Of a DNA stretch of 64,000 bases, positions 37,445 to 56,249 are shown piece after piece (the first letter of the stretch is position 1; every line of letters begins with the position of its first letter). The notes beneath the pieces were generated by a model. The model had not been told where the DNA came from. It saw nothing but the letters and a program-made list of their open reading frames with translations, and ran no database searches. Source of the stretch: Sulfuricurvum sp. GTDB taxonomy: Bacteria; Campylobacterota; Campylobacteria; Campylobacterales; Sulfurimonadaceae. The DNA lies in the NCBI RefSeq assembly GCF_030691015.1, contig NZ_JAUYFF010000001.1, positions 434,001 through 498,000 on the forward strand, given 5' to 3'. The position numbers and the translations under genes were made by a program.

Positions 37445-37990
37445 CTAACCTCTCCACGCTCTCTCTCGCCAAGTGTCCACATGAACGAAGCTGGAATAGA
37501 TTCCGATCCCCGATCCACCGCACATTCGAAGGAGTCGTGCCAGATAATCGCTGGGAATTCCCTCGATTTTAATATCGGCCGCTTTGCCGTACAAATGCAT
37601 TGAGTTGAAGGCTGCCCCTTCGATCGAATTATTGGTATGTTCGGTTCGATAGCCTGAGGTCAATATAATGGGACGATTGATGTGATTACTCGATAACCAC
37701 TGTTGCGCTTTTGATAAAACCATAAATAGGTTTGGATCCATTTGAACGGCTACACCAGCACGTACATCGGCAAAAATGCGGCACAAATCGCTATAACCTT
37801 CTTCTTCTATCTTACCGTTTCGAACAAAAGGAATTTTATAACTGGTGCCGTTTCGAATCACATTCAAAACTTCATCTTTCTCTTTCACGTTTGCATATAG
37901 AGGTGCCGATAGGCTCAGAGCAAGTGCACTTTTGATAAACACTCTCCGCGAAGGATCAAAAAGGGAAGGTTCACTCGTTTGTCTATTCAT
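37445..37990 (-). CDS. DUF882/YcbK-type M15 peptidase fold protein with Tat signal
   Basis: A 181-residue exported protein. The twin-arginine signal is SRRVFIKSALALSLSAPLYA. The mature domain (about 90-180) has MHLYGKAADIKI (H-x-x-G-x-x-x-D) and FVHVDT, the metal ligands of the peptidase M15A/DUF882 fold, which acts on peptidoglycan. The start at 37990 lacks a good ribosome site, and a longer ORF (to 38041) adds a basic stretch before the signal. Substrate unproven. It is divergent from the pilus-like operon across a 161-base gap. Confidence 0.8.
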   Translation of the reverse strand: MNRQTSEPSLFDPSRRVFIKSALALSLSAPLYANVKEKDEVLNVIRNGTSYKIPFVRNGKIEEEGYSDLCRIFADVRAGVAVQMDPNLFMVLSKAQQWLSSNHINRPIILTSGYRTEHTNNSIEGAAFNSMHLYGKAADIKIEGIPSDYLARLLRMCGGSGIGIYSSFVHVDTWRERAWRG

Positions 37991-38099
37991 AATGTGAAAT
38001 ATTCTTTTTCTATTATTTACGTTCTTATCAAGAATAAGCAATTAATAGTCCATCTTATTCCTATAGCATCAAGGTCTTATAAAAAAACGAAATTTAAAA

Positions 38100-38117
38100 T
38101 TGGCACACTTCTTGCTT
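38100..38117 (+). promoter_or_regulatory. Sigma-54 promoter before the pilus/secretion-like operon
   Basis: TTGGCACACTTCTTGCTT matches the RpoN consensus: GG (38102-38103) and GC (38114-38115) are exactly 10 bases apart, with TTGGCAC and TTGCTT in full. It lies about 35 bases before the first gene's ATG. In Campylobacterota RpoN with FlgRS drives rod, hook and minor flagellin genes, so membership in the flagellar hierarchy is inferred. Confidence 0.85.
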
Positions 38118-38151
38118 TTTATCCTCAAATAATCTCAATGAAAGTGGTGGC

Positions 38152-38541
38152 ATGAACTATTTTTGGTCATTTCTTTTCCTTACACTCTCGCTAAATGCGG
38201 CTTATAACCCGTTTTTTCGTGAACCTGTAAAACCGAAGAAAGCTCCCGTAGTAACGTCAGAACGTCCTATGCCTCTGCCGCCATTATTAGCTCCACCTTC
38301 ATTGCCGGCCGTTAAACCGACTTTTGATCTATCTCAACTCGTCTATAACTGTTTTTTAGAAACAGATAAGGGGAAATTCATACTCCTTAAAATAGGAGAA
38401 AATACCGTTGTTCTAAAAGAGGGCGATCCTTTTTATGCGAATAACACTAAATATTTCATACGAAACATCACCAGCAACTATATTACCGTTGATGATGCCG
38501 GACGAACCCAAACCATCTATTTCACGACAGGAGGTCAATAA
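38152..38541 (+). CDS. PilP/GspC-like (CtsR-position) periplasmic protein of a pilus/secretion system
   Basis: A 129-residue protein. A short N-terminal hydrophobic segment (about 3-16) is followed by NPFFREPVKPKK, then a proline-rich linker (PMPLPPLLAPPSLPAVKP). The last 75 residues form a small beta domain (FILLKIGENTVVLKEGDPF) that resembles the homology region of PilP/GspC, which couples inner-membrane proteins to the secretin. It precedes the secretin directly (1-base overlap), the same place as ctsR in Campylobacter jejuni. It is first after the sigma-54 promoter. Confidence 0.65.
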   Translation: MNYFWSFLFLTLSLNAAYNPFFREPVKPKKAPVVTSERPMPLPPLLAPPSLPAVKPTFDLSQLVYNCFLETDKGKFILLKIGENTVVLKEGDPFYANNTKYFIRNITSNYITVDDAGRTQTIYFTTGGQ

Positions 38542-39992
38542 TGCGTTCTCTTATACTTGCTGTCGTCCTTTTAGGATTGAGCGGATGTAGTGTCGCCAGT
38601 AAAAAAGAGACCCTGACTCCGGAAATGCAGCTTAAAGAACTGGACAATCCGATCACACAGATTCAGCGTACAGAACCGGCAATGCAAGTCGTTGAAGTGA
38701 ATGCTGATAATTTTCATATTGAAACACAAACCATCCCCGATAAAGAGATCATCAAGCGGGCGAAAATTATGGGTGCGGAGCTCAGTGATGTCATCGCATT
38801 GCTGACCGAAGCGACCAACGAAAACATTGTCTTCCAACTTCAGGCTGAATCTGTCAATTCGAACAAATATAATACAACTTCATCCTCCTCTAGCGGAAAC
38901 GCTGCCAATGCATACACAGGCAAAAATGATTATTTGCTTTCTGAAACAAATATCAACCTCTCGGCCTCCAATATCCCTTTTGGAAAAATGCTTCAAAAAA
39001 CAGTAGGAGATAAACTCAGCATTCTCTATGATGACGATACCTTTTATCTAGGAAATTTGCGGACAGTGACCCTCAAAATCCCTTCGGTTAGCGGTCTTCC
39101 TGAAATCCTAAAAGCAAGTATCTCTTCTATGGGTGCAAGCAATGTAACGACAGATGCTATTACCTCTTCCGTCAGCTTTTCAGCACGCGAAAAAGAGTAC
39201 GGGGATATTATGAAGTATCTTGAGATACTCCGAAACAATCTCTATGTCATTGAATATGAAATATCCATTTACGATGTCGAGCTCAAAGACAACTATGCCC
39301 TCGGTATTGACTGGAGCCTCGTTCCTACCCTCGCTCAAAACGGTATCGGCTTCGTCGCTTCTGCTGCAGCAGGACTGGGATCAGCCGGTGCATCAGCCGC
39401 TCCTCTCACCTTTGGGATGATCTTGAAAAATGATAACTACAACGGAAAAGCCCTCGTCAATGCCTTGGAGAATTTCGGAAAAGTTGAAAGCGTTCAACGA
39501 CCAAAACTTTTAGGACTTGCAGGAACCAATGTCAAACTCACCGACGGCATCGAAGCCCCCTACATCAGCGGAATTCAAAACACCTCCGTTGGCGGCAGCG
39601 GGGCATCTCAGGTTTCTACTACCAGTGCAACCGCCCTCAGCGGTTTAGAGATCAATCTTAAATCCAATATGCTCGATGGTACGGTTATCACCGATATCGG
39701 TCTGAAAATAAATGATATCGTCGGTTATACCTCATTTGAAATCGATGGAAACAAATTTTCTCAACCGCAAACCGTCACGAAAGCTATCAACAATACGATG
39801 CGCGTTCAGCCGGGTGTTCCGATCGTTATCTCAGGCCTTTTCCGCAATAAAAGCGATAAAGGGTGGAGTGGGCTTCCGGGACTCGGTGATAGCGCAGCAG
39901 GAGTTGTAGGGGGAGCGCGCCATGTCTCCAGTACGAAAAGTGAAATGGTAATCGTTGTTACCCCTCGCGTAATTAAGTATGTGATGAGATAA
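38541..39992 (+). CDS. Secretin (PilQ/MshL/GspD/CtsD type)
   Basis: A 483-residue outer-membrane secretin lipoprotein. The lipobox is LLGLSGCS. N-domain regions (about 50-250) include MGAELSDVIALLTEATNENI, an STN/N0-like start, with a serine-rich linker (TTSSSSSG). The secretin domain (about 270-483) has GKVESVQRPKLLGLAGTNVK and the C-terminal signature VQPGVPIVISGLFRNKSDKG, with LPGLGD. It should form the ring through which a pilus or substrate leaves. It matches the MshL/CtsD size rather than long GspD. Positioned between PilP-like and bitopic genes. Confidence 0.88.
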   Translation: MRSLILAVVLLGLSGCSVASKKETLTPEMQLKELDNPITQIQRTEPAMQVVEVNADNFHIETQTIPDKEIIKRAKIMGAELSDVIALLTEATNENIVFQLQAESVNSNKYNTTSSSSSGNAANAYTGKNDYLLSETNINLSASNIPFGKMLQKTVGDKLSILYDDDTFYLGNLRTVTLKIPSVSGLPEILKASISSMGASNVTTDAITSSVSFSAREKEYGDIMKYLEILRNNLYVIEYEISIYDVELKDNYALGIDWSLVPTLAQNGIGFVASAAAGLGSAGASAAPLTFGMILKNDNYNGKALVNALENFGKVESVQRPKLLGLAGTNVKLTDGIEAPYISGIQNTSVGGSGASQVSTTSATALSGLEINLKSNMLDGTVITDIGLKINDIVGYTSFEIDGNKFSQPQTVTKAINNTMRVQPGVPIVISGLFRNKSDKGWSGLPGLGDSAAGVVGGARHVSSTKSEMVIVVTPRVIKYVMR

Positions 39993-39994
39993 CC

Positions 39995-40789
39995 ATGGCA
40001 ATTTTTACGGCAGGATCTCTTGATTTTAGTAGTGATATTAGCAATATCCGCGCACAGATATACCGCTACGCACGTAGCGATCTTGATTCTACCGCGGTTA
40101 AAGTCTCTTTGAGAAAACATAGCAATGGGATTAACTATATTGCATTTCTCCCTAAAGAGAAACTCGTTTATGAAAACGTCCTCTCTTTGGCTTCCAAGAA
40201 TCAAGGGAACAGTGTGATCATTTTTGAACTTGATTATAAAAATGTGGGTGTGGTTGTTGAAGATGACAAAATCATTGACTATATTCTTGATAAACCTGAA
40301 GAATTTGCAACGGAGCGCAGTTATGGAACCCTTTATGCTGATAACACTAAAGGGGACAAACTCGTCTCTCTCAATCTTGATAAGGAGCGACAAGATACAT
40401 GGGTTGGAAGCTTTTTGTTAGCGTGTACCATCGTTATTACCTCAGGAATTCTGTATGCGGGGTATGGATATTTAAATGCTACGGAAATCAATCTTACAAA
40501 CAGGGATGTACTGGTTAAAGAATACAAAGAACTGGTGACTAAAAATTGCCAAACCTCATTTGCAATGACCAAAAAAGTGGATATTGTCCATGAATTGGAG
40601 AAAGTAGAGCAAATGACTAAAGAAACGGAGTCCACCCTTCAGCAGATAAGCTATCAAAATGATAGCTTATGTGCTGAGGTGGTGACACCAAACCTCAACG
40701 CTTTTGTCAGGTTGTTACCACCGGAAGCGAAAATTATAAAGGAAGACGTTGCTCTAGGCATCGTGCAATATTGTAATGAAAAAATATAG
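39995..40789 (+). CDS. Bitopic assembly protein, GspL/PilM-N-like candidate (CtsX position)
   Basis: A 264-residue protein. A cytoplasmic domain of about 135 residues contains SVIIFELDYKNVGVVVEDDK, which is reminiscent of the phosphate-1 loop strand of actin-like PilM/GspL proteins but not clearly homologous. One membrane span follows (about 136-158, VGSFLLACTIVITSGILYAGY), then a periplasmic helical part with a coiled-coil segment (DIVHELEKVEQMTKETESTL). Its position after the secretin fits the alignment subcomplex of pilus or type II systems. It has one N-glycosylation-type sequon (EINLT) in the periplasmic part. It overlaps the next gene. Confidence 0.6.
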   Translation: MAIFTAGSLDFSSDISNIRAQIYRYARSDLDSTAVKVSLRKHSNGINYIAFLPKEKLVYENVLSLASKNQGNSVIIFELDYKNVGVVVEDDKIIDYILDKPEEFATERSYGTLYADNTKGDKLVSLNLDKERQDTWVGSFLLACTIVITSGILYAGYGYLNATEINLTNRDVLVKEYKELVTKNCQTSFAMTKKVDIVHELEKVEQMTKETESTLQQISYQNDSLCAEVVTPNLNAFVRLLPPEAKIIKEDVALGIVQYCNEKI

Positions 40790-41216
40790 TCTTGTTGGTC
40801 TTTTTATTGTTATTTTAATAACAATTTTAGTCTCAGCATACTTCTATTTTCTCGATATTGTATACGAAAATAAAACGGTAGCCGAAGAGGTGAAGACCTT
40901 TAGTGCTTTAAAAACTGCCGTTGAGCAACCAGTTGCTGTGTATGCGGAAGATGATGTTCTGCGTACTAAAAATGATCAATACAACGCTCTAATCCAAGAA
41001 TTGGGTATGGAAGCGGAAGTAAAGATCGACCAAAAAAAATTAATTATCCAAGGAGGCATTCATGACACCTATTCATACTTACTATTGAAACGGCTCTTGG
41101 ATGTTGTCAAGAATGATGACGTTGAATTAGTCAACAGCTGCATCGGACAAGGATGCACGGGGGATGAATTTGGATTTTCAATCACAATTCATCCGTATGT
41201 CTTAAAGATTCCATAA
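40776..41216 (+). CDS. Small bitopic protein, PilO/GspM-like candidate
   Basis: A 146-residue protein with one N-terminal span (about 5-27, LVGLFIVILITILVSAYFYF) and a periplasmic domain. A helical part (about 35-75) is followed by an alpha/beta domain (KIDQKKLIIQGGIHDTYSYL) containing two close cysteines (CIGQGC). Topology and position match PilO/GspM-type alignment proteins, but sequence similarity is too weak to call. It overlaps the previous gene by 14 bases, which fits joint production of the two partners. Confidence 0.55.
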   Translation: MKKYSLVGLFIVILITILVSAYFYFLDIVYENKTVAEEVKTFSALKTAVEQPVAVYAEDDVLRTKNDQYNALIQELGMEAEVKIDQKKLIIQGGIHDTYSYLLLKRLLDVVKNDDVELVNSCIGQGCTGDEFGFSITIHPYVLKIP

Positions 41217-41232
41217 TTAAAAAAACCGATCT
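41203..41232 (+). promoter_or_regulatory. Degenerate sigma-28-like site before prepilin 1
   Basis: TAAAGATT (41203-41210) and ACCGATCT (41225-41232) resemble the two halves of a FliA promoter, but are 14 rather than 11 bases apart. If not functional, prepilin 1 relies on the sigma-54 transcript from upstream. Confidence 0.3.
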
Positions 41233-41271
41233 TGCAGTAAAAAACTGTTGATCACAAAAAAAGGATACACA

Positions 41272-41874
41272 ATGAAACAGTACACAGGAATGAGAAAAGG
41301 TATCTCTCTCGTAGAGATGATTGTTGCAGTTATTTTGTTTGCTACTTTATCAGCAATTGGTATTAAGTACTATAAAAACTTTTTTAACACCGAATTGACG
41401 GCTAAAAAAGCACGTGTTGCGGCATTGCTTGATCAAGGTGCACAAATGTCAAATGCGTATGATGCATACATCGTACAAGTAGGAACCATTGCAAATCTTG
41501 ATGTCAACTTGACAGAACTTGATGATGCTAACGTATCAATCCTCTCTAGACTTCCTGTCGCAATCGCTGGAATGGCAACTGGACTTGCTGATGGCACCGG
41601 AGCTTGGGAATTGAATAAAAGTACCGGCATTAGCGGAACAAGCGGTATTGCACTCCAATACAAATTGGATATGAATGCAACAGGTCGATCAATTACATCG
41701 GATGATGAGCAATACTGCGCGATTATCAACCATGAGTTTAATGCAAGTGTTGAATTCAATGCTTCAAATGCTACAGTATTCCCTACAGTTGTAACAGATG
41801 CATACAATGCATATGGTCCAGTATTTTGCTGGGATAACGGTACACATTTGACTCTCTTTATCGTCAAACCATAA
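41272..41874 (+). CDS. Prepilin 1 (type IV pilin-like, major-pilin candidate)
   Basis: A 200-residue prepilin. The class III leader MKQYTGMRKG ends in a prepilin peptidase site, followed by ISLVEM with Glu at +5 and a hydrophobic helix (about 11-35). The globular part has two cysteines (149 and 186) that could close a C-terminal D-loop. Six D/E-X-N-X-S/T sequons lie at Asn79, 87, 115, 135, 157 and 163. It is nearly identical to prepilin 2 (most differences in the last 35 residues). I start at ATG 41272; a longer ORF (41248) adds an atypical leader. A GC-rich hairpin follows. Role: filament subunit, inferred. Confidence 0.82.
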   Translation: MKQYTGMRKGISLVEMIVAVILFATLSAIGIKYYKNFFNTELTAKKARVAALLDQGAQMSNAYDAYIVQVGTIANLDVNLTELDDANVSILSRLPVAIAGMATGLADGTGAWELNKSTGISGTSGIALQYKLDMNATGRSITSDDEQYCAIINHEFNASVEFNASNATVFPTVVTDAYNAYGPVFCWDNGTHLTLFIVKP

Positions 41875-41916
41875 GTGTAAGGTCGGCACAAGCCGCCTCT
41901 TCACAATTTTCTACCC

Positions 41917-41935
41917 ATCCCCCTTTATGGGGGAT
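41917..41935 (+). terminator. Hairpin after prepilin 1
   Basis: ATCCCCC (41917-41923), loop TTTAT, GGGGGAT (41929-41935): a perfect 7-bp GC-rich stem followed by AAAACC, and a long T-run only 30 bases later. It may terminate or stabilise the upstream transcript, isolating prepilin 2. Confidence 0.55.
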
Positions 41936-41984
41936 AAAACCACTCCCCCTTTTCCTCTCTTTTTTTTAACTTACACTTTTTTAT

Positions 41985-42011
41985 TAAAGTTTTTTTATTC
42001 AGTACCGATAT
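41985..42011 (+). promoter_or_regulatory. Sigma-28 (FliA) promoter of prepilin 2
   Basis: TAAAGTTT (41985-41992), 11 bases, ACCGATAT (42004-42011), 31 bases before the start. The pattern equals the enteric and Campylobacter flagellin promoter (TAAAGTTT-N11-GCCGATAA) and that of flaA in this window. Confidence 0.85.
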
Positions 42012-42041
42012 ACTCAAAATCAATGATAAAAGGAGTTTGAC

Positions 42042-42647
42042 ATGACACAACCCTACAATGGAATGAGAAAGGGTATCTCTCTCGTTGAGATGATTATCGC
42101 CGTTATTTTATTTGCTACCTTGGCAGCGATCGGTATTAAGTACTATAAAAACTTTTTCAACACCGAATTGACGGCTAAAAAAGCACGTGTTGCGGCATTG
42201 CTCGATCAAGGTTCGCAAATGTCAAATGCGTATGATGCCTATATTGTACAAGTAGGGACAATTGCAAATCTTGATGTCAACTTGACAGAGCTTGACGATC
42301 ACAACGTATCGATCCTTACTAGACTTCCGGTAGCAATCGATGGAATGGCAACGGGGCTTGCTGATGGTACCGGTGCATGGGAATTGAATAAAAGTACCGG
42401 TATTGTCGGAACAAGCGGTATTGCACTCCAATACAAATTGGACATGAATGCGACAGGTCGATCAGTTACATCGGATGATGAGCAATACTGCGCGATTATC
42501 AACCATGAGTTTAATGCAAGTGTTGAATTCAACGCTTCAAACGCTACACTCTTCCCTACAAATCCAACAACAGCATATACGAACCTTGGTCCGGTATTTT
42601 GCTGGAATAACGGTTCGCATTTGACTCTCTTTATCGTCAAACCGTAA
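42042..42647 (+). CDS. Prepilin 2 (type IV pilin-like)
   Basis: A 201-residue prepilin almost identical to prepilin 1. The leader MTQPYNGMRKG is cleaved before ISLVEM (Glu at +5), then the hydrophobic helix follows. It has cysteines 150 and 187 and six D/E-X-N-X-S/T sequons (Asn80, 88, 116, 136, 158, 164). Differences from copy 1 cluster in the leader and in the C-terminal loop (NPTTAYTNLGPVFCWNN). It has its own sigma-28 promoter, an AAAGGAG ribosome site and a following hairpin, so it is a monocistronic unit. It is probably a filament subunit made with flagellin at a late stage. Confidence 0.84.
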   Translation: MTQPYNGMRKGISLVEMIIAVILFATLAAIGIKYYKNFFNTELTAKKARVAALLDQGSQMSNAYDAYIVQVGTIANLDVNLTELDDHNVSILTRLPVAIDGMATGLADGTGAWELNKSTGIVGTSGIALQYKLDMNATGRSVTSDDEQYCAIINHEFNASVEFNASNATLFPTNPTTAYTNLGPVFCWNNGSHLTLFIVKP

Positions 42648-42660
42648 TTCTTTTCTACAC

Positions 42661-42681
42661 ATCCCCTCTTTTGCAGGGGAT
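42661..42681 (+). terminator. Hairpin after prepilin 2
   Basis: ATCCCCT (42661-42667), loop CTTTTGC, AGGGGAT (42675-42681): a 7-bp stem like the one after prepilin 1, without an immediate T-tract. Confidence 0.5.
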
Positions 42682-42733
42682 CACATATCATCCACTACGT
42701 CCTCAGTTTTTCTTCATTTTAAAACCTTCTTAT

Positions 42734-42760
42734 TAAAGTTTTTTTCTTCCCTGCCGATAT
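42734..42760 (+). promoter_or_regulatory. Sigma-28 (FliA) promoter of the prepilin 3-ATPase-GspF operon
   Basis: TAAAGTTT (42734-42741), 11 bases, GCCGATAT (42753-42760): seven of eight bases of the -10 consensus and a perfect -35. It lies 32 bases before prepilin 3 and is the nearest promoter for the minor prepilin, ATPase, platform and last prepilin genes. Confidence 0.87.
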
Positions 42761-42792
42761 ACCCGAATACTGTGTTATAAAAGGAGTTTTAC

Positions 42793-43380
42793 ATGACACA
42801 ACCCTACAATGGAATGAGAAAGGGTATCTCTCTTGTCGAGATGACGATTGCCGTTATCTTATTCGCTCTCTTATCGACGGTTGCAATGCTCTATTACAAA
42901 AATCTTTTTAATATTGATTTAACATCAAAAAAAGCACGGATTGCTGCTTTGATGGATCAAGGTTATCAGCTCTCAGGAGCCTATGATGTATTTCAGGCTC
43001 AAATGGGTTATTCACCCTCTCTTACTGATTTAAGTGAATTTAATGCTACCAATGTATTGATTCTACGAAGACTTCCAAATGATATCCGTGAAATGACCTC
43101 CGTCGGATGGGAATTGAATACCACAACACCGGTAGGACGTCCTGCATTCTTATTTCCGATCGATCTTAACGGTACTACGTATAATTCGTTAGGGGATGAT
43201 GATCTTTACTGTGCGATTTATAATCATGAAATCAATAAAACAGTAGAACTTAACACCTCCAACCATGCTGTGGACTATGGTGATATGGTTACAAACTATG
43301 CACGATACGGAGATAGTTTTTGCTTTTCCGAGAGTAATGGTACCACCGGTTACAAACATTGGATAGCGGTTGTAAAATAA
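42793..43380 (+). CDS. Prepilin 3 (type IV pilin-like)
   Basis: A 195-residue prepilin. Its leader and cleavage region are the same as in prepilin 2 (MRKG then ISLVEM), but the globular part is diverged. Cysteines 140 and 177 are in matching places (DDDLYCAIYNHE corresponds to DDEQYCAIINHE). Six D/E-X-N-X-S/T sequons occur at Asn84, 109, 126, 148, 154 and 182; the total is kept although most lie in different sequence contexts. First gene of a probable sigma-28 operon; the minor prepilin gene starts 4 bases after its stop. Confidence 0.83.
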   Translation: MTQPYNGMRKGISLVEMTIAVILFALLSTVAMLYYKNLFNIDLTSKKARIAALMDQGYQLSGAYDVFQAQMGYSPSLTDLSEFNATNVLILRRLPNDIREMTSVGWELNTTTPVGRPAFLFPIDLNGTTYNSLGDDDLYCAIYNHEINKTVELNTSNHAVDYGDMVTNYARYGDSFCFSESNGTTGYKHWIAVVK

Positions 43381-43384
43381 AACG

Positions 43385-43879
43385 ATGCAAAGAAGCGCTT
43401 TTACTCAAATTGAAATAGCCTTGAGTGTTTTCTTAGCGGGGCTTATGGGAGCATTGACATACTATTATATCAATCTCTCATCGCTCAATAAAAGTCAGTA
43501 TAAAAGCGCGTTACAATCACATTTCAATTTAATTGAATCTATGGTTTTCCAGTGTAAAAGTTTATCCGAGCAGTTTCCTAAAGAGCTTGATAGCTCTACT
43601 AATGCGTCGAATACCCTTTTAACAGAGCTGGAGTGCAATACCTCAATTCCTTATTCTTTGAATGGAGGGAGAAATGGATTTATTCCCCTTCCCCCTACCG
43701 GTTTTACACCCTATAAAGCAACAGAATCAGGAAGTATATTTTTCATTGCAACGAGTGCAGACAATAATTCCACGCAAGACGATGCCCTTAAAAGTCTTAT
43801 CCTTAACTACACCCCTCAACAAGCAAGTTTGGAGCACAATGCCACTTCGGCAATTTTCAAATTTTACCTATCACGCTGA
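43385..43879 (+). CDS. Minor prepilin-like protein
   Basis: A 164-residue protein with a very short class III leader. The leader is MQRSA followed by FTQIEIALSVFLAG, so Glu is at +5 but Ala instead of Gly is at -1, which some minor pilins tolerate. A hydrophobic helix (about 6-28) leads into a globular part with cysteines 57 and 84. Three sequons (Asn85, 128, 152) are present. It sits between prepilin 3 and the ATPase, as minor pilins that prime assembly often do. Confidence 0.72.
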   Translation: MQRSAFTQIEIALSVFLAGLMGALTYYYINLSSLNKSQYKSALQSHFNLIESMVFQCKSLSEQFPKELDSSTNASNTLLTELECNTSIPYSLNGGRNGFIPLPPTGFTPYKATESGSIFFIATSADNNSTQDDALKSLILNYTPQQASLEHNATSAIFKFYLSR

Positions 43880-43919
43880 TTATCCCCTTTTTGTGTTATA
43901 ATTAAACCAAAAAGTGCCA

Positions 43920-45482
43920 ATGAATATTAAAAAGATATTAACGCCAAAGCAATTTGAAGTATGCCAAAAAGAGCAATACTATTATCAGCAAATCGGCATT
44001 AAAAAACATCTTCTCGATATTGCACTTTCTCATCACTTTGTCCAGAAAAAAGAGACTTCTAAAACCTACAATCTAGAACTCATGAAAGAGTATGAGATGG
44101 TCATCGCCGAAGAGAGCGATGATCTTCTCAAAATTCTCCGTAAAGAGCTTTTGGGCGAAAAACGCCTTGCTGAACTCAGTCAAAAAGTACATAAAAAAGT
44201 TGAACAAAAAAATATTCCCGTACGTGAATTTCAACAAAAATATACAGCTCTTCTTCGTGTTGACCCCGAAAGCATTGAACGCAAAATCAAACAATTTAAT
44301 GCGATGGATTACGAAGAAAATGAAGTTATTGATATCTTTGAAATGCTCCTCGAATACGGCATTCAACGTTCTGCCAGTGATATTCATATCAATGCGTATG
44401 AGTCATTTTATTGGCTCCGATATCGAATCGACGGCAAAATCATAGCCCGCTACCTTCTAAACCATGAACTGGCCGGACGTTTTGCACTCATCATCAAAGA
44501 GCGTTGTAATATCGATATGATCAATGTTTTTGCCCCACAGGGGGGAAGCTTTTCACGCGAATACGAAAACCGTACGATCGATTTTCGTATTGAGATTGCT
44601 CCCTCACAATATGGCGAAAATGTTGTTTTACGTATTTTGGACAAAGCCAGTAATATCAAATCACTCAATACCCTTTTTCCTAAAAGCCATCCGATGTCGG
44701 AGCACGTTCACCATTTCGTCAACCAATCCAGCGGATTCTTCCTCGTCGTAGGACCGACCGGAAGCGGTAAAACAACGACGCTCAATGCTATTTTGAATCA
44801 ACGCGACAGATTGCATGAAATTATTTATACGATTGAAGATCCGATCGAGTACAAAATCGACTTTGTAACCCAATACCAAATAAATGAATCCAGTGGTTTT
44901 ACCTTTGCGGAGGGGATGAAATCAATCATGCGTCAAGACCCTGACGTCATCGTCATCGGGGAGATGCGTGATCGTGAATCGATCCTCACCGGACTTAAAG
45001 CGGCCCACAGCGGACACATGGTTTTCTCCACCCTCCATACCCCCAACAGTTTTATGGCGATGGAACGGATCCGAGATGAGGGGGGAGATTTATTTATCCT
45101 TGCCTATTCTCTCAGCGGTGTTGTCGCACAGCGCCTAGTCCCAAAACTTTGTACATGTAAACAACCGTGTAATGTTGAAGACGGAAAAGCATTTTTTACG
45201 ACTGAGAGTTACGGTTTTGAGAAAAGTGGCTGTATCCGGTGTAATTTTACCGGGTACAGCGGACGGGCATTGCTCATGGATATGGTCTTTATACCCGGAG
45301 ATATGAAGGTTCGTTATCAATTCTATCTTGCCCTCAAAAACAGTACGGTGTTTAAAGCATGGGAGCACTTTATTACCTTTAGCTATTTTCAATCTGCCGC
45401 CTATTTATTCGAAATGGGACTCTGCGATTACGAAACGCTCTCTCGTGAATTGTTGTCCTTAGGATACGTTCATGAAACCTGA
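43920..45482 (+). CDS. GspE/PilB-type assembly ATPase (CtsE-like)
   Basis: A 520-residue hexameric assembly ATPase. An unusual N-terminal region (1-125) is followed by the core: arginine-finger/Asp-box area (DIHINAYESFYWLRYRIDGK), Walker A GPTGSGKT (278-285), Asp box TIEDPIEY, Walker B DPDVIVIGEMRD, His box TLHT. Near the C-terminus a cysteine set (KLCTCKQPC, then CIRC) forms the zinc site seen in GspE and MshE. It powers pilin polymerisation at the inner membrane. No PilT-type retraction ATPase is present. I start at ATG 43920; a GTG at 43914 is possible. Confidence 0.92.
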   Translation: MNIKKILTPKQFEVCQKEQYYYQQIGIKKHLLDIALSHHFVQKKETSKTYNLELMKEYEMVIAEESDDLLKILRKELLGEKRLAELSQKVHKKVEQKNIPVREFQQKYTALLRVDPESIERKIKQFNAMDYEENEVIDIFEMLLEYGIQRSASDIHINAYESFYWLRYRIDGKIIARYLLNHELAGRFALIIKERCNIDMINVFAPQGGSFSREYENRTIDFRIEIAPSQYGENVVLRILDKASNIKSLNTLFPKSHPMSEHVHHFVNQSSGFFLVVGPTGSGKTTTLNAILNQRDRLHEIIYTIEDPIEYKIDFVTQYQINESSGFTFAEGMKSIMRQDPDVIVIGEMRDRESILTGLKAAHSGHMVFSTLHTPNSFMAMERIRDEGGDLFILAYSLSGVVAQRLVPKLCTCKQPCNVEDGKAFFTTESYGFEKSGCIRCNFTGYSGRALLMDMVFIPGDMKVRYQFYLALKNSTVFKAWEHFITFSYFQSAAYLFEMGLCDYETLSRELLSLGYVHET

Positions 45483-46512
45483 TATTCTCACTCTCTTAAA
45501 GACGCTTCAACTCTCATTGGAAAATGGCAAAAGTCTTACCAATGCCCTTAATTTATTGCAAAATACAACAAAAAACAAAGATGAGCGTATTGCTTACGGG
45601 AAAATCACACGCTCTATCCAAGAGGGCGCTTCGTTTTCAAAAGCGGTAGAAAAATATGTCTCTCCTTCTCCCGACATTATCCAATTTGTTGCCATGGCGG
45701 AAAAGGGGGGATCGTTTGTAAAAACCCTAAAATCTGTGGTGAGCTATCTTGAAATAAAAAATAAGTTTCACCAAGAGTCTAATGATAAAATTGCTCTTCC
45801 GATGATCTATTTTACGTTAACGGCTACGATTATTATTTTCGTCCGTTTCTTTGCGGTCCCCTTTCATATACAAGAAGCCAAAACGTATGACCCGAAAATT
45901 TTTGTCATTATTGCCGAGCATTTAGATATGGCTCTTGCTTTAAGCAATTTGCTCTTCGGGGGGCTACTTCTCTTTTCAGCCTATTTTTTTATTGTTATGA
46001 TTGCCCTCTTTAACTACACGGGGATCGTGCAAGGAATTGCTAAACGATTTGCTTCACGGCTTCCTATGTCATCAAAAATCATTGAGTACTTCGAAAAATT
46101 TATCCTGTTGAGTTTACTCAGTGCCATGTTAAAAAATGGAGTCTCCTTGAAGACAGCTTTTAAAACAGCAGCAGCAGGCACGCTGGTTCCCAGTATTGCA
46201 AAACAATTTAACGGAATTCTTGCCCAAGTGAGTCGAGGTGAAAAAAACTTTTGGACTATCCCATTTTTCGAAGATATCGAACAGCATTTGCTAGCAGGCG
46301 CAGGAACCGTTACTCAACTGGGAGATATATTAGAACAATTTGCCGATCGTGCGAGACTTAATGCACTTGCTATGGCAGGGAAATTTTTTCGTATCATTAC
46401 TATACTGGCTATCTTATTATTGGCATTTGCGGTATTTGTCGAATTTTTCACGATTGTCTTGACCCAAGTGTTGATTCAGCAAGAAATCGTTAATAGTGCG
46501 GGTCGGGCATAA
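45472..46512 (+). CDS. GspF/PilC-type inner-membrane platform protein (CtsF-like)
   Basis: A 346-residue platform protein with two GspF domains. The first cytoplasmic domain (about 1-110; KTLQLSLENGKSLTNALNLL, QFVAMAEKGGSFVKTLKSV) is followed by a span near 111-133 and another near 150-177. The second domain follows (about 195-310; LLSLLSAMLKNGVSLKTAFK), with a last span near 312-335. It overlaps the ATPase gene by 11 bases. With the ATPase it should form the pilin-assembly motor. Confidence 0.9.
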   Translation: MKPDILTLLKTLQLSLENGKSLTNALNLLQNTTKNKDERIAYGKITRSIQEGASFSKAVEKYVSPSPDIIQFVAMAEKGGSFVKTLKSVVSYLEIKNKFHQESNDKIALPMIYFTLTATIIIFVRFFAVPFHIQEAKTYDPKIFVIIAEHLDMALALSNLLFGGLLLFSAYFFIVMIALFNYTGIVQGIAKRFASRLPMSSKIIEYFEKFILLSLLSAMLKNGVSLKTAFKTAAAGTLVPSIAKQFNGILAQVSRGEKNFWTIPFFEDIEQHLLAGAGTVTQLGDILEQFADRARLNALAMAGKFFRIITILAILLLAFAVFVEFFTIVLTQVLIQQEIVNSAGRA

Positions 46513-46522
46513 GGGGGATCGG

Positions 46523-47182
46523 ATGAGAAAAGGGTTTATGCTGATAGAAGTAATGGTTGCGATTATTATGGCCGGGCTTCTTGCTGCTGTCTTAGCTACG
46601 ATCGGTTATTACACGGTTATCCAAGGCAATACCCTCAAGCAGCAAAATAGCAAAACAATACTGGAAGTTATCCGAAGCCGTTTGCTCAATTCGGCTTCAA
46701 ACCCTGATAATGACTCCTATTTTGAGTTACTTAAAGAAGAAGCCGGTTCAACGGTTCCGGTTGTAGTGGGTCTTGGTAAAGATGCTTGGGGACGTAATAT
46801 TTACTATTCTACCTACGATTTCGGTGCCCATAATTCTAATGCAACCTATGCCGATAACAATACAACCTCTATCTCTCCCAATGCCAATATACTTGGGCGT
46901 CTGATCAGCCGAGGAGAAGACGGTATTTTACAAACCAATGCAACCCATTCAAGTGCTCAAAGCGATGATATTATGGTCGAAATTGGAATTGGTGAAACGA
47001 ATCACTTAAAACTCTATAACGGTTCAGAAGTCACCACTCAAACTCGTGGCTACAACAGTGCCATTGTATCCGCAACAGAGCCCGCATCGCCGATTCATGG
47101 AACACTCTGGTACAGCGAGAACAATTCCACTTTGTATATGTATAATACCACCGATGGCAACTGGACTCAAATTTCCCCCTAA
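46523..47182 (+). CDS. Minor prepilin/pseudopilin-like protein
   Basis: A 219-residue protein with a four-residue class III leader (MRKG) followed by FMLIEVMVAIIMAG, giving Gly at -1 and Glu at +5. A GspG-like segment occurs in the middle (GKDAWGRNIYYSTYD), then threonine/asparagine-rich sequence. Three sequons occur (Asn113, 201, 213). I start at ATG 46523 with GGGGG 6 bases upstream; an earlier GTG start would lie inside the GspF gene. It ends 5 bases before the flaA promoter. Confidence 0.75.
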   Translation: MRKGFMLIEVMVAIIMAGLLAAVLATIGYYTVIQGNTLKQQNSKTILEVIRSRLLNSASNPDNDSYFELLKEEAGSTVPVVVGLGKDAWGRNIYYSTYDFGAHNSNATYADNNTTSISPNANILGRLISRGEDGILQTNATHSSAQSDDIMVEIGIGETNHLKLYNGSEVTTQTRGYNSAIVSATEPASPIHGTLWYSENNSTLYMYNTTDGNWTQISP

Positions 47183-47186
47183 TCGT

Positions 47187-47213
47187 TAAAGTTTTTTGTT
47201 TATCCTCCGATAT
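47187..47213 (+). promoter_or_regulatory. Sigma-28 (FliA) promoter of flaA
   Basis: TAAAGTTT (47187-47194), 11 bases, TCCGATAT (47206-47213), 67 bases before the flaA start. It matches the flagellin promoter consensus closely and is the reference for the two prepilin promoters upstream. Confidence 0.88.
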
Positions 47214-47280: not shown

Positions 47281-49302
47281 ATGGGTTTCAGAATTAACAC
47301 TAACATTGCGGCAATGAACGCACACACAAATTCAACGGTTAATAATCGTAGTTTGGATGATTCTCTCTCTAAATTGAGTTCGGGTCTACGTATTAATAAA
47401 GCGGCGGATGATGCATCGGGGATGGTTATTGCCGATTCTCTACGAACACAAGCAAACTCACTAGGACAAGCTATTTCCAATGCAAATGACGGAATCGGAA
47501 TTATCCAGGTTGCCGACAAAGCAATGGATGAGCAATTAAAAATTCTCGATACCATTAAAACCAAAGCGATTCAAGCAGGGTCTGATTCACAAAGTACTTC
47601 ATCACGTACAGCGATTCAAAAAGACGTTAACCGTCTCTTGGAACAATTGGACAATATCGCAAAAACAACGGCGTTCAACGGAACACAGCTTTTGAGCGGA
47701 AACTTCTCGAATAAAGAGTTCCAAGTCGGTGCATACAGCAATCAAACCATTAAAGCTTCTATCGCTAATACTCAAAGTTTGGCTATCGGAAATACCTCTA
47801 CGAAAGTGGACCAAGTTCAAGTAGGAAATTTTGCAACCAGCACTTTAGCGCATCCTCTTGATAAAAATGCAACGGTATTGACATTTACCGGAGCCGATGG
47901 TATCAATGCACAAGGTTTGGCGGCAGGTGATACAATCCGTATCGACGGTGTCGGCGATTTTACAATCCAACACATCAGCGGAACAATGACTACTGCGGGA
48001 ACCATGTCAGGTATCGCGATCACACTCGATCGTGCACTCGGTAAAACAGTGAGCGTCGGTTCTTCTTTTGGTGTGTCATTAGTAAAAACAACCGCTGAAA
48101 ACCTCAGTACGTTTTCTCCTGCAGCAGTCACGGGCGGTGTTACTATGACTACCAATAGCAGTAACATTAACGGGTTTGCGATCGGCGATAAAATGAACGT
48201 TACCATCAGTGACGGTTCATCTTTAGTCTATACTCTTGTCAGTGTCGCCGGAGCATCAACAGGGACAACTTCAGGTGTTCTTATCTGGTCTGCCGCTGCT
48301 GCAGGTACAGCCGGAGTTATTTCTCTTGCAACCGTCTCGGTAAATGACCGTGCGAGCATGGGTACCGATTTTACATCAGCTGATTACGCTCAATATACCA
48401 TCGAAGGTGTTAAACTTGACGGTGTACAAATGACCGATTCAAGCGGTAACGGTGTAGCGCAAAGTGGTCTTGGCCGTATTGCCGATCTTATCAATGCTGC
48501 TTCCGGTCAAACCGGTGTTAAAGCGGTTGCGAATACTGAAATCAACAGTAATATCGCCGTACAAGGGGGAACATTACTCTCCAATATCACCATCAACGGA
48601 ACAACAATCCTCAGTTCTGGAGCGTCGATCCTAAGTAGTGATACGGATAATACCTTGGTTACGGCTATCAACGATAAAACGTCATTGACCGGTGTTACCG
48701 CCAGTTTGGAAAGTGACGGTACGTTAACTCTTTCTTCTGATGGACGTGCGGTTAACTTGAGCGGTATGAGTGCTGCAGCAGGACTTAACGACGGTGTTTA
48801 TGCCGGACGTTTGGAATTGGTCAAACAAGGCGGCGGTGATATCACGGTTAGTTCGTCTCACTTCAGCAATTCAGGGTTAACTGCCTCACTTACAACAGCG
48901 AAGGCTTTAACAGATACAACAAGTTCAAGCGTACTCAGCGATTTGATCTACGGTCAAGTAGATGATAACAATGACGGCTTGGTAAACACCAGTGACAAAG
49001 TAGGTCTTTTGTTAACTCGTGAGGGTGCAACAAAAGCTATGGATATCACAGAATCTGCGATTGCCCGTTTGGATGCGATCCGTGCAGACCTCGGGTCGGT
49101 ACAAAACCAACTCGTTGTTACGGTGAATAACATCGCGGTAACACAAGTTAACGTTAGAGCGGCAGAATCACAAATCCGTGATGTCGACTTTGCAGCTGAG
49201 AGTGCAAACTTCTCTAAATTCAATATCCTTGCGCAATCTGGCTCATACGCTATGAGTCAAGCAAACGCTGTTCAACAAAACGTCCTAAGACTACTTCAGT
49301 AG
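47281..49302 (+). CDS. flaA: Flagellin A (sigma-28 controlled)
   Basis: A 673-residue flagellin. The N-terminal D0/D1 (about 1-170) has MGFRINTNIAAMNAH and LSSGLRINKAADDASGM. The C-terminal D1/D0 (about 590-673) has NQLVVTVNNIAVTQVNVRAA and ends in LLQ. The middle D2/D3 (about 170-590) is threonine/serine/glycine-rich, larger than the roughly 575-residue Campylobacter flagellins and exposed for glycosylation. The D1 segment LDTIKTKAIQ (89-98) is the epsilon type that does not trigger TLR5 in pathogens. It has the same length as flaB (673), and the two differ mainly in the middle and in scattered substitutions. A hairpin pair follows. Confidence 0.96.
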   Translation: MGFRINTNIAAMNAHTNSTVNNRSLDDSLSKLSSGLRINKAADDASGMVIADSLRTQANSLGQAISNANDGIGIIQVADKAMDEQLKILDTIKTKAIQAGSDSQSTSSRTAIQKDVNRLLEQLDNIAKTTAFNGTQLLSGNFSNKEFQVGAYSNQTIKASIANTQSLAIGNTSTKVDQVQVGNFATSTLAHPLDKNATVLTFTGADGINAQGLAAGDTIRIDGVGDFTIQHISGTMTTAGTMSGIAITLDRALGKTVSVGSSFGVSLVKTTAENLSTFSPAAVTGGVTMTTNSSNINGFAIGDKMNVTISDGSSLVYTLVSVAGASTGTTSGVLIWSAAAAGTAGVISLATVSVNDRASMGTDFTSADYAQYTIEGVKLDGVQMTDSSGNGVAQSGLGRIADLINAASGQTGVKAVANTEINSNIAVQGGTLLSNITINGTTILSSGASILSSDTDNTLVTAINDKTSLTGVTASLESDGTLTLSSDGRAVNLSGMSAAAGLNDGVYAGRLELVKQGGGDITVSSSHFSNSGLTASLTTAKALTDTTSSSVLSDLIYGQVDDNNDGLVNTSDKVGLLLTREGATKAMDITESAIARLDAIRADLGSVQNQLVVTVNNIAVTQVNVRAAESQIRDVDFAAESANFSKFNILAQSGSYAMSQANAVQQNVLRLLQ

Positions 49303-49458: not shown

Positions 49459-49476
49459 TTGGAACTCTTTTTGCTT
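49459..49476 (+). promoter_or_regulatory. Sigma-54 promoter of flaB
   Basis: TTGGAACTCTTTTTGCTT matches the RpoN consensus; GG (49461-49462) and GC (49473-49474) are 10 bases apart. It lies about 52 bases before the flaB start. The same flaA(sigma-28)/flaB(sigma-54) split exists in Campylobacter. Confidence 0.88.
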
Positions 49477-49527
49477 TAATTCTGACTAGATAAGCGCATG
49501 GACGCAAAACCACATCAAGGATTTATC

Positions 49528-51549
49528 ATGGGTTTCAGAATTAACACTAACATTGCGGCAATGAACGCACATACAAATTCAACGGTTAACAATCGTAGTT
49601 TGGATGATTCTCTCTCTAAATTGAGTTCGGGGCTACGTATTAATAAAGCGGCGGATGATGCATCTGGGATGTCTATTGCGGATTCCTTGCGTATGCAGTC
49701 AAACTCATTAGGACAAGCAATTGCCAATGCAAATGATGCGGTCGGAATTATCCAAGTTGCCGATAAAGCAATGGATGAGCAATTAAAAATTCTCGATACC
49801 ATTAAAACCAAAGCAATTCAAGCAGCATCGGATTCACAAAGTGCTTCATCACGTACTGCGATTCAAAAAGACGTTAACCGTCTCTTGGAACAATTGGACA
49901 ATATTGCAAAAACAACGGCGTTCAACGGAACACAGCTTTTGAGCGGAAACTTCTCGAATAAAGAGTTCCAAGTCGGGGCTTACAGCAATCAAACGATTAA
50001 AACGTCTATTTCCAATACCCAAAGTTTGGCTATCGGAAATACGACCAGTAAGGTCGACCAAGTTCAAGTAGGAAATTTTGCAACCAGCACATTGCTCCAT
50101 CCTCTTGATAAAAATACAACGGTATTGACATTTACCGGAGCCGATGGTATCAATGCACAAGGTTTGGCGGCAGGTGATACAATCCGTATCGACGGTGTCG
50201 GCGATTTTACAATCCAACACATCAGCGGAACGATGACTACAGCTGGAACCATGTCAGGGATCGCAATTACACTCGATCGTGCACTCGGTAAAACATTGAG
50301 CGTCGGTTCTTCTTTCGGTGTCGGTTTGGTTAAAACCACATCTGAAAATCTGAGCTCTTTCTCAGCTACAGCGGTTACCGGCGGTGTTACCATGACACTA
50401 AATACTACCAATACAACAGGTTTTGCGATCGGCGATAAAATGAGCGTTACCATCAGTGACGGCTCATCCATGACCTATACACTTGTCAGTGTTGCCGGAG
50501 CATCAACAGGGACAACTTCAGGGGTTCTTATCTGGTCTGCCGCTGCTGCAGGTACAGCCGGAGTTATTTCAAATGCAACCGTATCGATGAATACCCGTGC
50601 CAGTATGGGAACGACCTTCGCATCGTCGGATTATGCTCAATACACGGTTGAAGGCGTTAAACTTGACGGTGTACAAATGACCGATTCAAGTGGTAACGGT
50701 GTAGCGCAAACCGGTATTGGCCGTATTGCCGATCTTATCAATGCTGCTTCCGGTCAAACCGGTGTTAAAGCGGTTGCGAATACCGATATCAACAGTACTA
50801 TCGCCGTACAAGGGGGAACATTACTCTCCAATATCACCATCAACGGAACAACCATCCTTAGTGCCGGGGCATCGATTGAGAGCGGAGACACCAATAATAT
50901 TCTTGTTGGAGCCATCAATTCCCAATCTTCTATTACAGGGGTCAAAGCGAATCTTGAGAATGACGGTACGATCACTATTTCATCCGATGGACGCGCTATT
51001 AATGTGAGCGGTTTGAGTGCGGCGGCAGGAATTAATGACGGTGTTTATGCCGGACGTTTAGAATTGGTCAAACAAGGTGGCGGTGATATCACGGCCAGTT
51101 CAGCCCACTACAGCAATGCAGGATTGACAACTGCCATTACTACAGCAAAAACAATGGGTGAAGTGGGAAGTACTCGCGTTCTCAGCGATTTGATCTACGG
51201 TCAAGTTGATGATAATAACGACGGATTAATCAACAGTACGGACGAAGTAGGTCTATTGTTAACCCGTCAAGGAGCAGCAAAAGCGATGGATATCACCGAA
51301 GCTGCAATTGCCCGTTTGGATGCGATCCGTGCAGACCTCGGGTCGGTACAAAACCAACTCGTTGTTACGGTCAATAATATCTCGGTAACACAAGTAAACG
51401 TTAGAGCGGCAGAATCACAAATCCGTGATGTCGACTTTGCAGCAGAGAGTGCTAACTTCTCTAAATACAATATCCTTGCGCAATCGGGCTCATACGCTAT
51501 GAGTCAGGCAAATGCCGTTCAACAAAACGTACTTAAACTTCTCCAATAA
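49528..51549 (+). CDS. flaB: Flagellin B (sigma-54 controlled)
   Basis: A 673-residue flagellin paralogous to flaA, with identical D0/D1 ends apart from a few changes (for example SIADSLRMQSN instead of VIADSLRTQAN) and the same LDTIKTKAIQ epsilon-type segment. The central domain diverges more (for example the region after SVGSSFGVGLVKTTSENLSS). I start at ATG 49528 (MGFRINTN) and not the in-frame ATG at 49498. This start has AAGGATTTATC upstream exactly as flaA does. In Campylobacter the sigma-54 flagellin is the minor, hook-proximal one; the same is inferred here. Confidence 0.95.
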   Translation: MGFRINTNIAAMNAHTNSTVNNRSLDDSLSKLSSGLRINKAADDASGMSIADSLRMQSNSLGQAIANANDAVGIIQVADKAMDEQLKILDTIKTKAIQAASDSQSASSRTAIQKDVNRLLEQLDNIAKTTAFNGTQLLSGNFSNKEFQVGAYSNQTIKTSISNTQSLAIGNTTSKVDQVQVGNFATSTLLHPLDKNTTVLTFTGADGINAQGLAAGDTIRIDGVGDFTIQHISGTMTTAGTMSGIAITLDRALGKTLSVGSSFGVGLVKTTSENLSSFSATAVTGGVTMTLNTTNTTGFAIGDKMSVTISDGSSMTYTLVSVAGASTGTTSGVLIWSAAAAGTAGVISNATVSMNTRASMGTTFASSDYAQYTVEGVKLDGVQMTDSSGNGVAQTGIGRIADLINAASGQTGVKAVANTDINSTIAVQGGTLLSNITINGTTILSAGASIESGDTNNILVGAINSQSSITGVKANLENDGTITISSDGRAINVSGLSAAAGINDGVYAGRLELVKQGGGDITASSAHYSNAGLTTAITTAKTMGEVGSTRVLSDLIYGQVDDNNDGLINSTDEVGLLLTRQGAAKAMDITEAAIARLDAIRADLGSVQNQLVVTVNNISVTQVNVRAAESQIRDVDFAAESANFSKYNILAQSGSYAMSQANAVQQNVLKLLQ

Positions 51550-53547: not shown

Positions 53548-53563
53548 TAACAGTAGAGAGAGA

Positions 53564-55623: not shown

Positions 55624-56249
55624 GGATATTCCTCGACAAAATTGAGAAAGTTGCGGAGAAGTTTAAGACCTTTGGTTTGACTCTTTTCAGGATGAAACTG
55701 AGTGGCAAACAGGTTTTTATACTGCAATGCGGCAGTCAGTTCATAAGAGCCGTACTGACATTTTGCACTGATATAACGCTCTTCACACACAACATGATAC
55801 GAATGATCAAAATAAAAATGGGCGTCTTTATTTATCCCCATAAAAAGAGGAGAGTCCTCTTTCGCAATAATATCATTCCACCCGACATGGGGAACCCGCA
55901 AAGTGCTATCAGGCTTCATAGCTATCACTTTCCCCTCGATCCAGCCGAGCCCCTCATGCAATCCCATCTCTTCGGAGCTTTGTAAAAACAGTTGCATTCC
56001 CAAACAGATACCAAAAATCGGTTTGCCCGCTTCTATCACCTGCGTATGAAGCAAAGGGAGCAAATGACGCGCACGAAGATTGTTCATCGCTTCGGCAAAT
56101 GCACCGACACCGGGAAGAATATAAGCATCAGCCGCTTTGAGTACCTCATGATCATCCGTAATCGTGGCGGTATATCCCAACAATTCAAGCGCATTGGCAA
56201 CGCTTTGAACATTTCCCATCCCATAATCGATAATAGCGATTTTTTTCAT
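55617..56249 (-). CDS. hisH: HisH-type glutamine amidotransferase of the sugar pathway
   Basis: A 210-residue class I glutaminase. It begins MKKIAIIDYGMGNVQSV and has the nucleophile in GICLGMQLFLQ and the His-Glu pair in TQFHPEKSQ. It releases ammonia from glutamine for the HisF2-like partner encoded next (7-base overlap). I start at ATG 56249, which overlaps the preceding stop as ATGA. A paralogue for histidine synthesis must be elsewhere. Location in this operon assigns it to acetamidino-sugar formation. Confidence 0.88.
   Translation of the reverse strand: MKKIAIIDYGMGNVQSVANALELLGYTATITDDHEVLKAADAYILPGVGAFAEAMNNLRARHLLPLLHTQVIEAGKPIFGICLGMQLFLQSSEEMGLHEGLGWIEGKVIAMKPDSTLRVPHVGWNDIIAKEDSPLFMGINKDAHFYFDHSYHVVCEERYISAKCQYGSYELTAALQYKNLFATQFHPEKSQTKGLKLLRNFLNFVEEYPC

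Follow-up and report, generated by a model that had tools for sequence, protein, structure and literature searches.

We analyzed a gene cluster in a window of 64,000 nucleotides from a Sulfuricurvum-like genome (2.33 Mb in 19 contigs; "the window" means this whole stretch). The cluster comprises 11 plus-strand genes (38152-47182) coding for the parts of a type IV filament (TFF) machine, with promoter elements of the sigma-54 and sigma-28 (FliA) kinds before and within it, and is bordered by a divergent M15/DUF882 peptidase gene on one side and by flaA (47281) on the other. An earlier note on this DNA had read the cluster as a PilP-like protein, a secretin and bitopic proteins followed by prepilins, an ATPase and a platform. 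All of these open reading frames (ORFs) are present in that order, and the secretin, ATPase and platform score above their Pfam cut-offs. The genes are as follows.

38152..38541, plus strand: gene 1, small PilP/MshK-like periplasmic protein, an ORF conserved in the complete loci and assigned by position and size
38541..39992, plus strand: gene 2, outer-membrane secretin, MshL-like lipoprotein (Pfam Secretin, 2.1e-15)
39995..40789, plus strand: gene 3, bitopic protein of the GspL/PilO2/BfpC type, with a cytoplasmic domain, a transmembrane segment and a periplasmic ferredoxin-like domain (AlphaFold)
40776..41216, plus strand: gene 4, bitopic PilO/GspM-like protein, named by position and topology
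41272..41874, plus strand: gene 5, prepilin 1 (prepilin motif MRKGISLVEM; Pfam N_methyl sub-threshold)
42042..42647, plus strand: gene 6, prepilin 2 (Pfam N_methyl sub-threshold; AlphaFold model)
42793..43380, plus strand: gene 7, prepilin 3, heading the fiber/motor operon (prepilin motif; Pfam N_methyl sub-threshold)
43385..43879, plus strand: gene 8, minor prepilin (ORF; conserved position)
43920..45482, plus strand: gene 9, GspE/PilB-family assembly ATPase (Pfam T2SSE, 3e-81)
45472..46512, plus strand: gene 10, GspF/PilC-family inner-membrane platform (Pfam T2SSF, 3.8e-19)
46523..47182, plus strand: gene 11, minor prepilin with a large C-terminal region (weak GspG/prepilin match; conserved position)

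Identity of the filament machine

The best named family for the gene 2 secretin is NCBIfam MshL (89.6 bits, cut-off 250), and its best PDB match is BfpB. PDB sequence searches with genes 1, 3 and 4 returned nothing meaningful, and Pfam had no match for gene 1 and no family for gene 4, in which an N-terminal hydrophobic segment is conserved and C-terminal residues are invariant across loci. A PHROGs scan of the small proteins was uninformative. The AlphaFold model of gene 3, of low to moderate confidence, resembled the C-terminal domain of PulL (VIA Z 8.6, 67 aa, 2.0 A) and the cytoplasmic domain of PilO2Bp (VIA Z 6.2-6.3, 116-122 aa). As the Z values are about 6 to 8.6, this likeness is a fold-level hint that gene 3 might join a cytoplasmic domain like that of PilO2Bp/BfpC to a periplasmic domain like that of PulL/XcpY. 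The prepilins bear RKG-ISLVEM motifs, and prepilins 1 and 2 are 90% identical. The gene 9 ATPase probably starts at ATG 43920 rather than at GTG 43914, since close orthologues align from 43920.

An ATPase, a platform and a major pilin lie clustered here with a secretin, which is the arrangement that defines a generic TFF (PMC6668835). The genome has one Peptidase_A24 gene, on contig C17, and the same scheme allows the prepilin peptidase to lie outside the cluster (PMC6668835). No set of curated families for a named system fitted the locus: the scores were 289 of 630 bits for GspE, 56 of 424 for GspF and 53 of 351 for GspD of the type II secretion system (T2SS), 266 of 676 for PilB and 44 of 284 for PilQ of the type IVa pilus, and 42 of 373 for TadA of the Tad/Flp pilus, in addition to the MshL score given above for the MSH pilus. 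As GspE, PilB, MshL, PilQ, GspF and TadA all fall far below their curated cut-offs, we assign the locus to the generic TFF class of that scheme (PMC6668835), with an MshL/BfpB-like secretin. PilT is missing from the locus, and two PilT-like genes lie elsewhere in the genome; neither MshM nor any AAA/ExeA-type ORF besides the assembly ATPase was found in 38100-47182. The locus also does not correspond to the FcpMNO flagellar cage, as it holds a secretin, an ATPase, a platform and pilins.

Two other filament clusters are present in the genome, a T2SS-like one with GspG-K-like prepilins at C15 and a PilMN-O-P-Q-B-C-like type IV pilus (T4P) cluster at C11, the latter matching the gene order that PMC11870540 gives for pilMNOPQ in Campylobacterota. 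In the ATPase tree, the window's family is a separate clade with full support, apart from the ATPases of both. Judged by its sequences, the locus is a third, self-contained TFF machine, distinct from the T2SS and T4P of the genome.

We favor an adhesive pilus, by no more than a moderate margin, over a role in secretion or DNA uptake. The reasons are a secretin of the pilus kind, several pilin copies that differ from one another, and the T2SS and T4P that the genome already has. The alternative, a T2SS-like secretion (pseudopilus) or DNA-uptake system timed by the flagellum, is somewhat unlikely. Its best arguments are the ATPase, whose highest score is to GspE, the resemblance of gene 3 to PulL/GspL, and the platform, whose best family is ComGB (64 bits); against it stand the existing T2SS with its GspG-K-like prepilins and the pilMNOPQ-type T4P, a secretin closest to the pilus secretins MshL and BfpB, and prepilins of 190-200 aa, repeated, variable and present in 1-4 copies per locus, which look like major pilins.

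Promoter elements and their conservation

The earlier note had placed a consensus sigma-54 promoter before the envelope genes and FliA promoters before prepilin 2 and the prepilin 3 operon, and the sites at all three places proved to be perfect matches. The sigma-28 element was scored as TAAAG-N15-CCGATAT over 12 positions and the sigma-54 core over 11, with the flagellin promoters as yardsticks; genome-wide counts come from pattern searches and fetched stretches.

38100..38117, plus strand: sigma-54 (-24/-12) promoter TTGGCACACTTCTTGCTT, 52 bp before gene 1; 11/11 core match
41203..41232, plus strand: relic sigma-28 site before prepilin 1, TAAAG-N18-CCGATCT, with an 18-bp spacer, 3 bp too long
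41917..41935, plus strand: stem-loop after prepilin 1 (fold of 41872-41985, z -4.8)
41985..42011, plus strand: sigma-28 (FliA) promoter of prepilin 2, TAAAG-N15-CCGATAT; 12/12
42661..42681, plus strand: stem-loop after prepilin 2 (fold of 42645-42735, z -2.9)
42734..42760, plus strand: sigma-28 (FliA) promoter of the prepilin 3-ATPase-platform operon; 12/12
47187..47213, plus strand: sigma-28 promoter of flaA, yardstick for the motif; 12/12
49459..49476, plus strand: sigma-54 promoter of flaB, yardstick, TTGGAACTCTTTTTGCTT

Both kinds of site are strongly enriched in the window compared with shuffled sequence (sigma-28 matches with at most one mismatch, 7 seen and 0.29 expected; sigma-54 matches, 2 seen and 0.11 expected, the second preceding flaB). 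Genome-wide, TTGGCACACTTCTTGCTT at 38100 is one of 3 perfect sigma-54 core matches. Perfect sigma-28 matches number 5, two of them within ORFs and three intergenic, namely those of prepilin 2, prepilin 3 and flaA; the intergenic sites with one mismatch include those of fliD and a FapA-like gene. The exact pattern TGGNAC-N5-TTGCTT occurs 8 times in the genome, against once for a reversed-pattern control, and precedes gene 1, flaB, flgH and a flagellin/FlgL-like gene among others. Both motifs are thus markers of flagellar genes here, and for each of them the locus ranks with the best matches in the genome: it carries a -24/-12 element of the flagellar kind, as class 2 (sigma-54) genes do, and flaA/fliD-like elements, as class 3 (sigma-28/FliA) genes do. 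Neither the T2SS-like nor the T4P cluster showed conserved sigma-54 or sigma-28 sites. A sigma-28 match before the T4P pilB (11/12) was discarded as a promoter candidate, as it lies within a coding frame and is not conserved.

Full-length orthologues of the ATPase (at least 64% identity) were found in 21 of 151 genomes of the family. Of the order's 399 genomes, 7 have the secretin (E <= 1e-60), including one outside the family; at this threshold, the secretin profile found none in these 399 genomes outside Sulfuricurvum, Sulfurimonas and one further genus. The locus is therefore accessory. We fetched 20 loci, in which gene order is conserved and the number of prepilins alone varies (1 to 4 per locus). 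Two locus-bearing contigs from different genera, G048:C38 and G026:C282, both measure 14425 bases and carry clearly different ATPase sequences; the identical lengths may be a coincidence or a binning oddity.

The earlier note had proposed promoter conservation in relatives as a check, and the sites were indeed kept. In 19 of 19 loci, the leading pilin of the ATPase operon has a sigma-28 site (at least 10/12) before it, as against 2% of random 150-bp windows, and a sigma-54 site (at least 9/11) precedes gene 1 in 14 of 15 loci, as against 2.1% (both counts take in the window's own locus). No sigma-28 site of at least 10/12 was present upstream of genes 2, 3, 4, 8, 9, 10 or 11 in the loci compared. 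The conservation extends to loci without flagellins nearby, to one other family (G418: sigma-54 10/11, 65 bp before gene 1; sigma-28 10/12, 84 bp before the pilin) and to loci with near-random flanks, the sequences around the sigma-54 site being 49-69% identical between clades in gapped alignments, close to unrelated AT-rich sequence. Against flanks so near to random identity, the promoter cores form a footprint. Two complete Sulfurimonas genomes, G139 and G141, have no perfect sigma-28 match apart from the pilin site, and their flagellins have sites of the same form (TAAAG-N15-TCGATAT, 10-11/12).

Chance matches at both sets of sites, in genes really transcribed by sigma-70, would be an extremely improbable explanation. 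Isolated sigma-28 matches of 10-11/12 do occur elsewhere, for example within the gene upstream of the T4P pilB, and lend it some substance; yet that site is not conserved, whereas those of the locus sit at fixed places in 20 loci, and sigma-70-like sites in the region are no more frequent than in shuffles (27 versus 28.2).

Prepilin 1 probably belongs to the sigma-54 transcript, as it has no working-looking sigma-28 site, the one before it being a relic. The stem-loop behind it is likely a transcript end or an mRNA-protecting hairpin, and the hairpins after prepilins 1 and 2 suggest that prepilin 1 ends the sigma-54 transcript and that prepilin 2 is probably monocistronic. No hairpin structure beyond that of shuffles was found upstream of the sigma-54 site. 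In Sulfurimonas, a perfect sigma-28 site with a 15-bp spacer lies ahead of the first pilin, overlapping gene 4 at its end or directly adjoining it; the equivalent place in the window's clade holds a relic with a 16-18-bp spacer, and later pilin copies have intact sites. The extra prepilin copies of Sulfuricurvum clade 2 are preceded by sigma-54 sites of their own (10-11/11; L043:6291, L043:7040 and L044:7066, in ATPase orientation) and not by sigma-28 sites. From their promoter sequences, pilin copies seem to have moved between the two flagellar classes, not out of them.

Genomic context and candidate regulators

The neighbors of the locus in the window are the following.

37445..38041, minus strand: M15/DUF882 peptidase, divergent neighbor (Pfam Peptidase_M15_3, 1.9e-17)
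47281..49302, plus strand: flaA flagellin, neighbor outside the machine (ORF)
49498..51549, plus strand: flaB flagellin, neighbor (ORF)

A position directly upstream of flaA and flaB, as claimed earlier, holds for the window's clade and for no other. The locus was found in at least five contexts (neighbors in relatives were read from the sequence, without a family scan): beside flaA in the window's clade alone, beside a ribonucleotide-reductase-like and a purB-like gene in Sulfuricurvum clade 2, beside a ppx-like and an outer-membrane-assembly-like gene in Sulfurimonas, in another place in L048/L049, and elsewhere again in G026/G048 and G418. The M15/DUF882 peptidase stays with the locus in the two Sulfuricurvum clades, that is, in both of their genomic contexts. 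In G029, G078, G133, G139 and G141, topA lies directly beside the flagellin gene (flaA), and in the window the peptidase and the whole locus stand between the two. By parsimony, the cassette would already have had its promoters when it came to lie between topA and flaA in the window's clade, and an adjacency acquired so late would not account for them.

It could be argued that the promoters are a by-product of location, pilin copies having taken over flaA-type promoters so that the split has no functional meaning. The window's sites do resemble the flaA site, spacer included (TAAAGTTTTTT), and are no more than about 5 kb away from it. However, Sulfurimonas, Sulfuricurvum clade 2, L049 and G418 have the sites in other contexts, and the topA-flaA adjacency of the five relatives indicates that the cassette arrived with its promoters. 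This explanation is very improbable and largely refuted, and we rejected flaA adjacency as the cause of the promoters.

In the flagellar cascade of this phylum, sigma-54/FlgR genes are switched on once the export apparatus has been assembled; FliA genes follow when the completed hook allows FlgM to be released (PMC3930126, PMC11187230). Exactly one FliA above the family cut-off was found in each of 8 genomes tested. The window's genome has two strong sigma-54 activators, a NifA-like GAF-AAA-HTH (helix-turn-helix) protein and an FlgR-type response regulator without a C-terminal HTH, like FlgR of H. pylori (PMC3930126). In G133 (rated 100% complete), which keeps the sigma-54 site, the sole strong sigma-54 activator found is of the FlgR type without HTH, and FlgR is likewise the sole one found in G069. 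The FlgR-type gene of G069 (L179, G069:C99) and its filament locus (L050) lie on one contig, about 38 kb apart.

The sigma-54 site is thus plausibly driven by FlgR, judging from which activators accompany it. A response to the NifA-like or another activator, and so to a nitrogen or carbon signal, with the fiber part alone on the flagellar timetable, is distinctly improbable. The TTGGCAC...TTGC core is also the general nif-type consensus, and the GAF-AAA-Fis-HTH activator stands beside FlgR in the genome, both of which speak for it; the genomes G133 and G069 and the TTGCTT extension common to flaB and flgH speak against it. The lack of an unusual hairpin upstream of the site agrees with an enhancer-independent FlgR, though it is no test for an enhancer.

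Proposed assembly and related systems

Taken with the cascade of the phylum, the promoter layout predicts that channel and frame are made first and fiber and motor second. Comparative sequence evidence thus supports the division that the earlier note had proposed, with the envelope parts under sigma-54, the fiber and motor under sigma-28 and both on the flagellar timetable. In a first step, together with the rod and hook genes, FlgR-activated sigma-54 polymerase would transcribe genes 1-4 and probably prepilin 1, giving the envelope channel and the inner-membrane frame. In a second step, together with flagellin, once the hook is complete and FlgM exported, FliA would transcribe prepilin 2 and the operon of prepilin 3, minor prepilin, ATPase, platform and minor prepilin, so that fiber and motor would appear solely in cells with a finished flagellar base. 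The pilins would be processed by the one prepilin peptidase that the genome encodes, and the product would most likely be a thin pilus with which swimmers attach to surfaces or to other cells. We consider it likely that the locus encodes a third TFF machine which the flagellar cascade builds in two steps, and which probably gives swimming cells an attachment pilus; the promoters strongly suggest this timing. A closer coupling, in which the secretin complex is laid at the flagellar pole during rod and hook assembly and hook completion (FlgM export) licenses pilus extrusion, one checkpoint serving two appendages, is a quite unlikely extension.

Several points weigh against this model. The sigma-54 site of L049 is weak (8/11), with GG and GC kept at the right spacing. 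The pilin structure is a moderate-confidence model with a weak fold match: for prepilin 2 the AlphaFold pLDDT was 73, the top VIA row was the type 4 pilin 8pfb (Z 5.6, 106 aa, 5.6 A), and a Foldseek search with the model gave no significant match. The NifA-like activator of the window's genome could act on the sigma-54 site. Flagellin or FlhA is present in 22 of 22 bearers of the locus, a co-occurrence that is marginal (hypergeometric P = 0.04, relatedness ignored), so we rejected it as strong support; it supports the model weakly because most of the family is flagellated. The sequences themselves show the gene content, the promoter elements with their conservation, the lack of such elements in the other TFF clusters, the single FliA and, in one relative, FlgR as sole strong activator; from these we infer transcription, the FlgM checkpoint in this organism, the exposure of the filament and its use.

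The nearest precedent is in Bdellovibrio, where an operon for a Tad (Flp, type IVb) pilus is controlled by FliA (PMC5430801). That operon encodes Tad machinery, with no sigma-54 step described for envelope parts, and Bdellovibrio FliA has been turned into a general attack-phase regulator; the window's promoters, in contrast, divide the machine by assembly stage, and its ATPase has only the low TadA-like score given above. In the open-access literature, we found neither an account of this locus nor a pilus or T2SS reported to be split between sigma-54 and sigma-28. The earlier note's claim that such a split is undescribed for Pil systems thus stands as to the split, while FliA control of a TFF is already published (PMC5430801), once in the literature searched. 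Nor did that literature yield a stage-matched sigma-54/sigma-28 division of a filament machine.

Like the MSH pilus, the locus is compact and combines a secretin (nearest to MshL), bitopic proteins, an ATPase, a platform and pilins. Unlike it, the locus lacks the AAA protein MshM, one of the mandatory genes (PMC6668835), and has an MshL below cut-off; the MSH definition includes no flagellar promoters. The FcpMNO flagellar cage of Campylobacterota, made of PilMNO homologues (PMC11870540), likewise uses type IV pilus-type parts with the flagellum in the same phylum. It is, however, encoded by a stand-alone pilMNO-like operon by miaB with no secretin, pilin, ATPase or platform, and its fcp genes were found by quantitative PCR to be independent of RpoN and FliA (PMC11870540). 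The window's locus would be the reverse case, a whole filament machine inside the cascade.

Compared by description, the Cts transformation system of Campylobacter jejuni has a compact locus with a secretin, GspE/GspF-type proteins and bitopic proteins, as here. The window's secretin profile, in turn, reached a single genus of the order besides Sulfuricurvum and Sulfurimonas (399 genomes, E <= 1e-60), and the literature searched gave no sign that RpoN or FliA controls cts. Type IVa pili, for example of Pseudomonas and Geobacter, have a sigma-54-dependent pilA with a dedicated activator, PilR. They share with the window a pilus gene under sigma-54 (PMC12316311); sigma-54/PilR drives the pilin there, whereas here sigma-54, likely with FlgR, would drive the envelope channel and the pilins would be under sigma-28.

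As a rule, flagella and type IV filaments are regarded as surface programs that are separate and often opposed. Here a two-tier flagellar cascade appears to be laid over a different machine at matching assembly stages and kept across genera and after relocation; as read from the genomes, some sulfur-oxidizing relatives of Campylobacter carry the arrangement and keep it even far from flagellar genes. Should transcript data bear this out, a second appendage would be gated by the FlgM/FliA hook checkpoint, and this would offer a testable system for checkpoint reuse and for how swimmers in sulfidic habitats prepare to attach.

Other genes behind sites of the two motifs were seen. A FapA_N-domain protein lies directly behind a sigma-28 site in the window's genome (L064, G000:C2:47286; 11/12) and in G057 (L195, G057:C4:946446; 12/12, with a nearly identical spacer), and its gene is likely, from these sites, a further FliA target in the genus. 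A 174-aa protein with no Pfam match (L071, G000:C4:113655) has an intergenic sigma-28 site 61 bp upstream (11/12) and is a candidate new member of the FliA regulon. On the minus strand of C17 (L220, G000:C17:131269), an exact flagellar-type sigma-54 site precedes a lipoprotein-like protein that had no Pfam match in the fragment tested.

Downstream of flaB (51640-63962), the window holds a Maf-type flagellin glycosyltransferase and a minus-strand DegT/StrS aminotransferase, perhaps part of a sugar pathway for glycosylation of flagellin (or pilin). Flagellin length varies about threefold within the family, from 266 aa in Sulfurimonas G141 to 673-683 aa in the window and open frames of more than 800 aa in G057, the difference lying in the middle of the protein.

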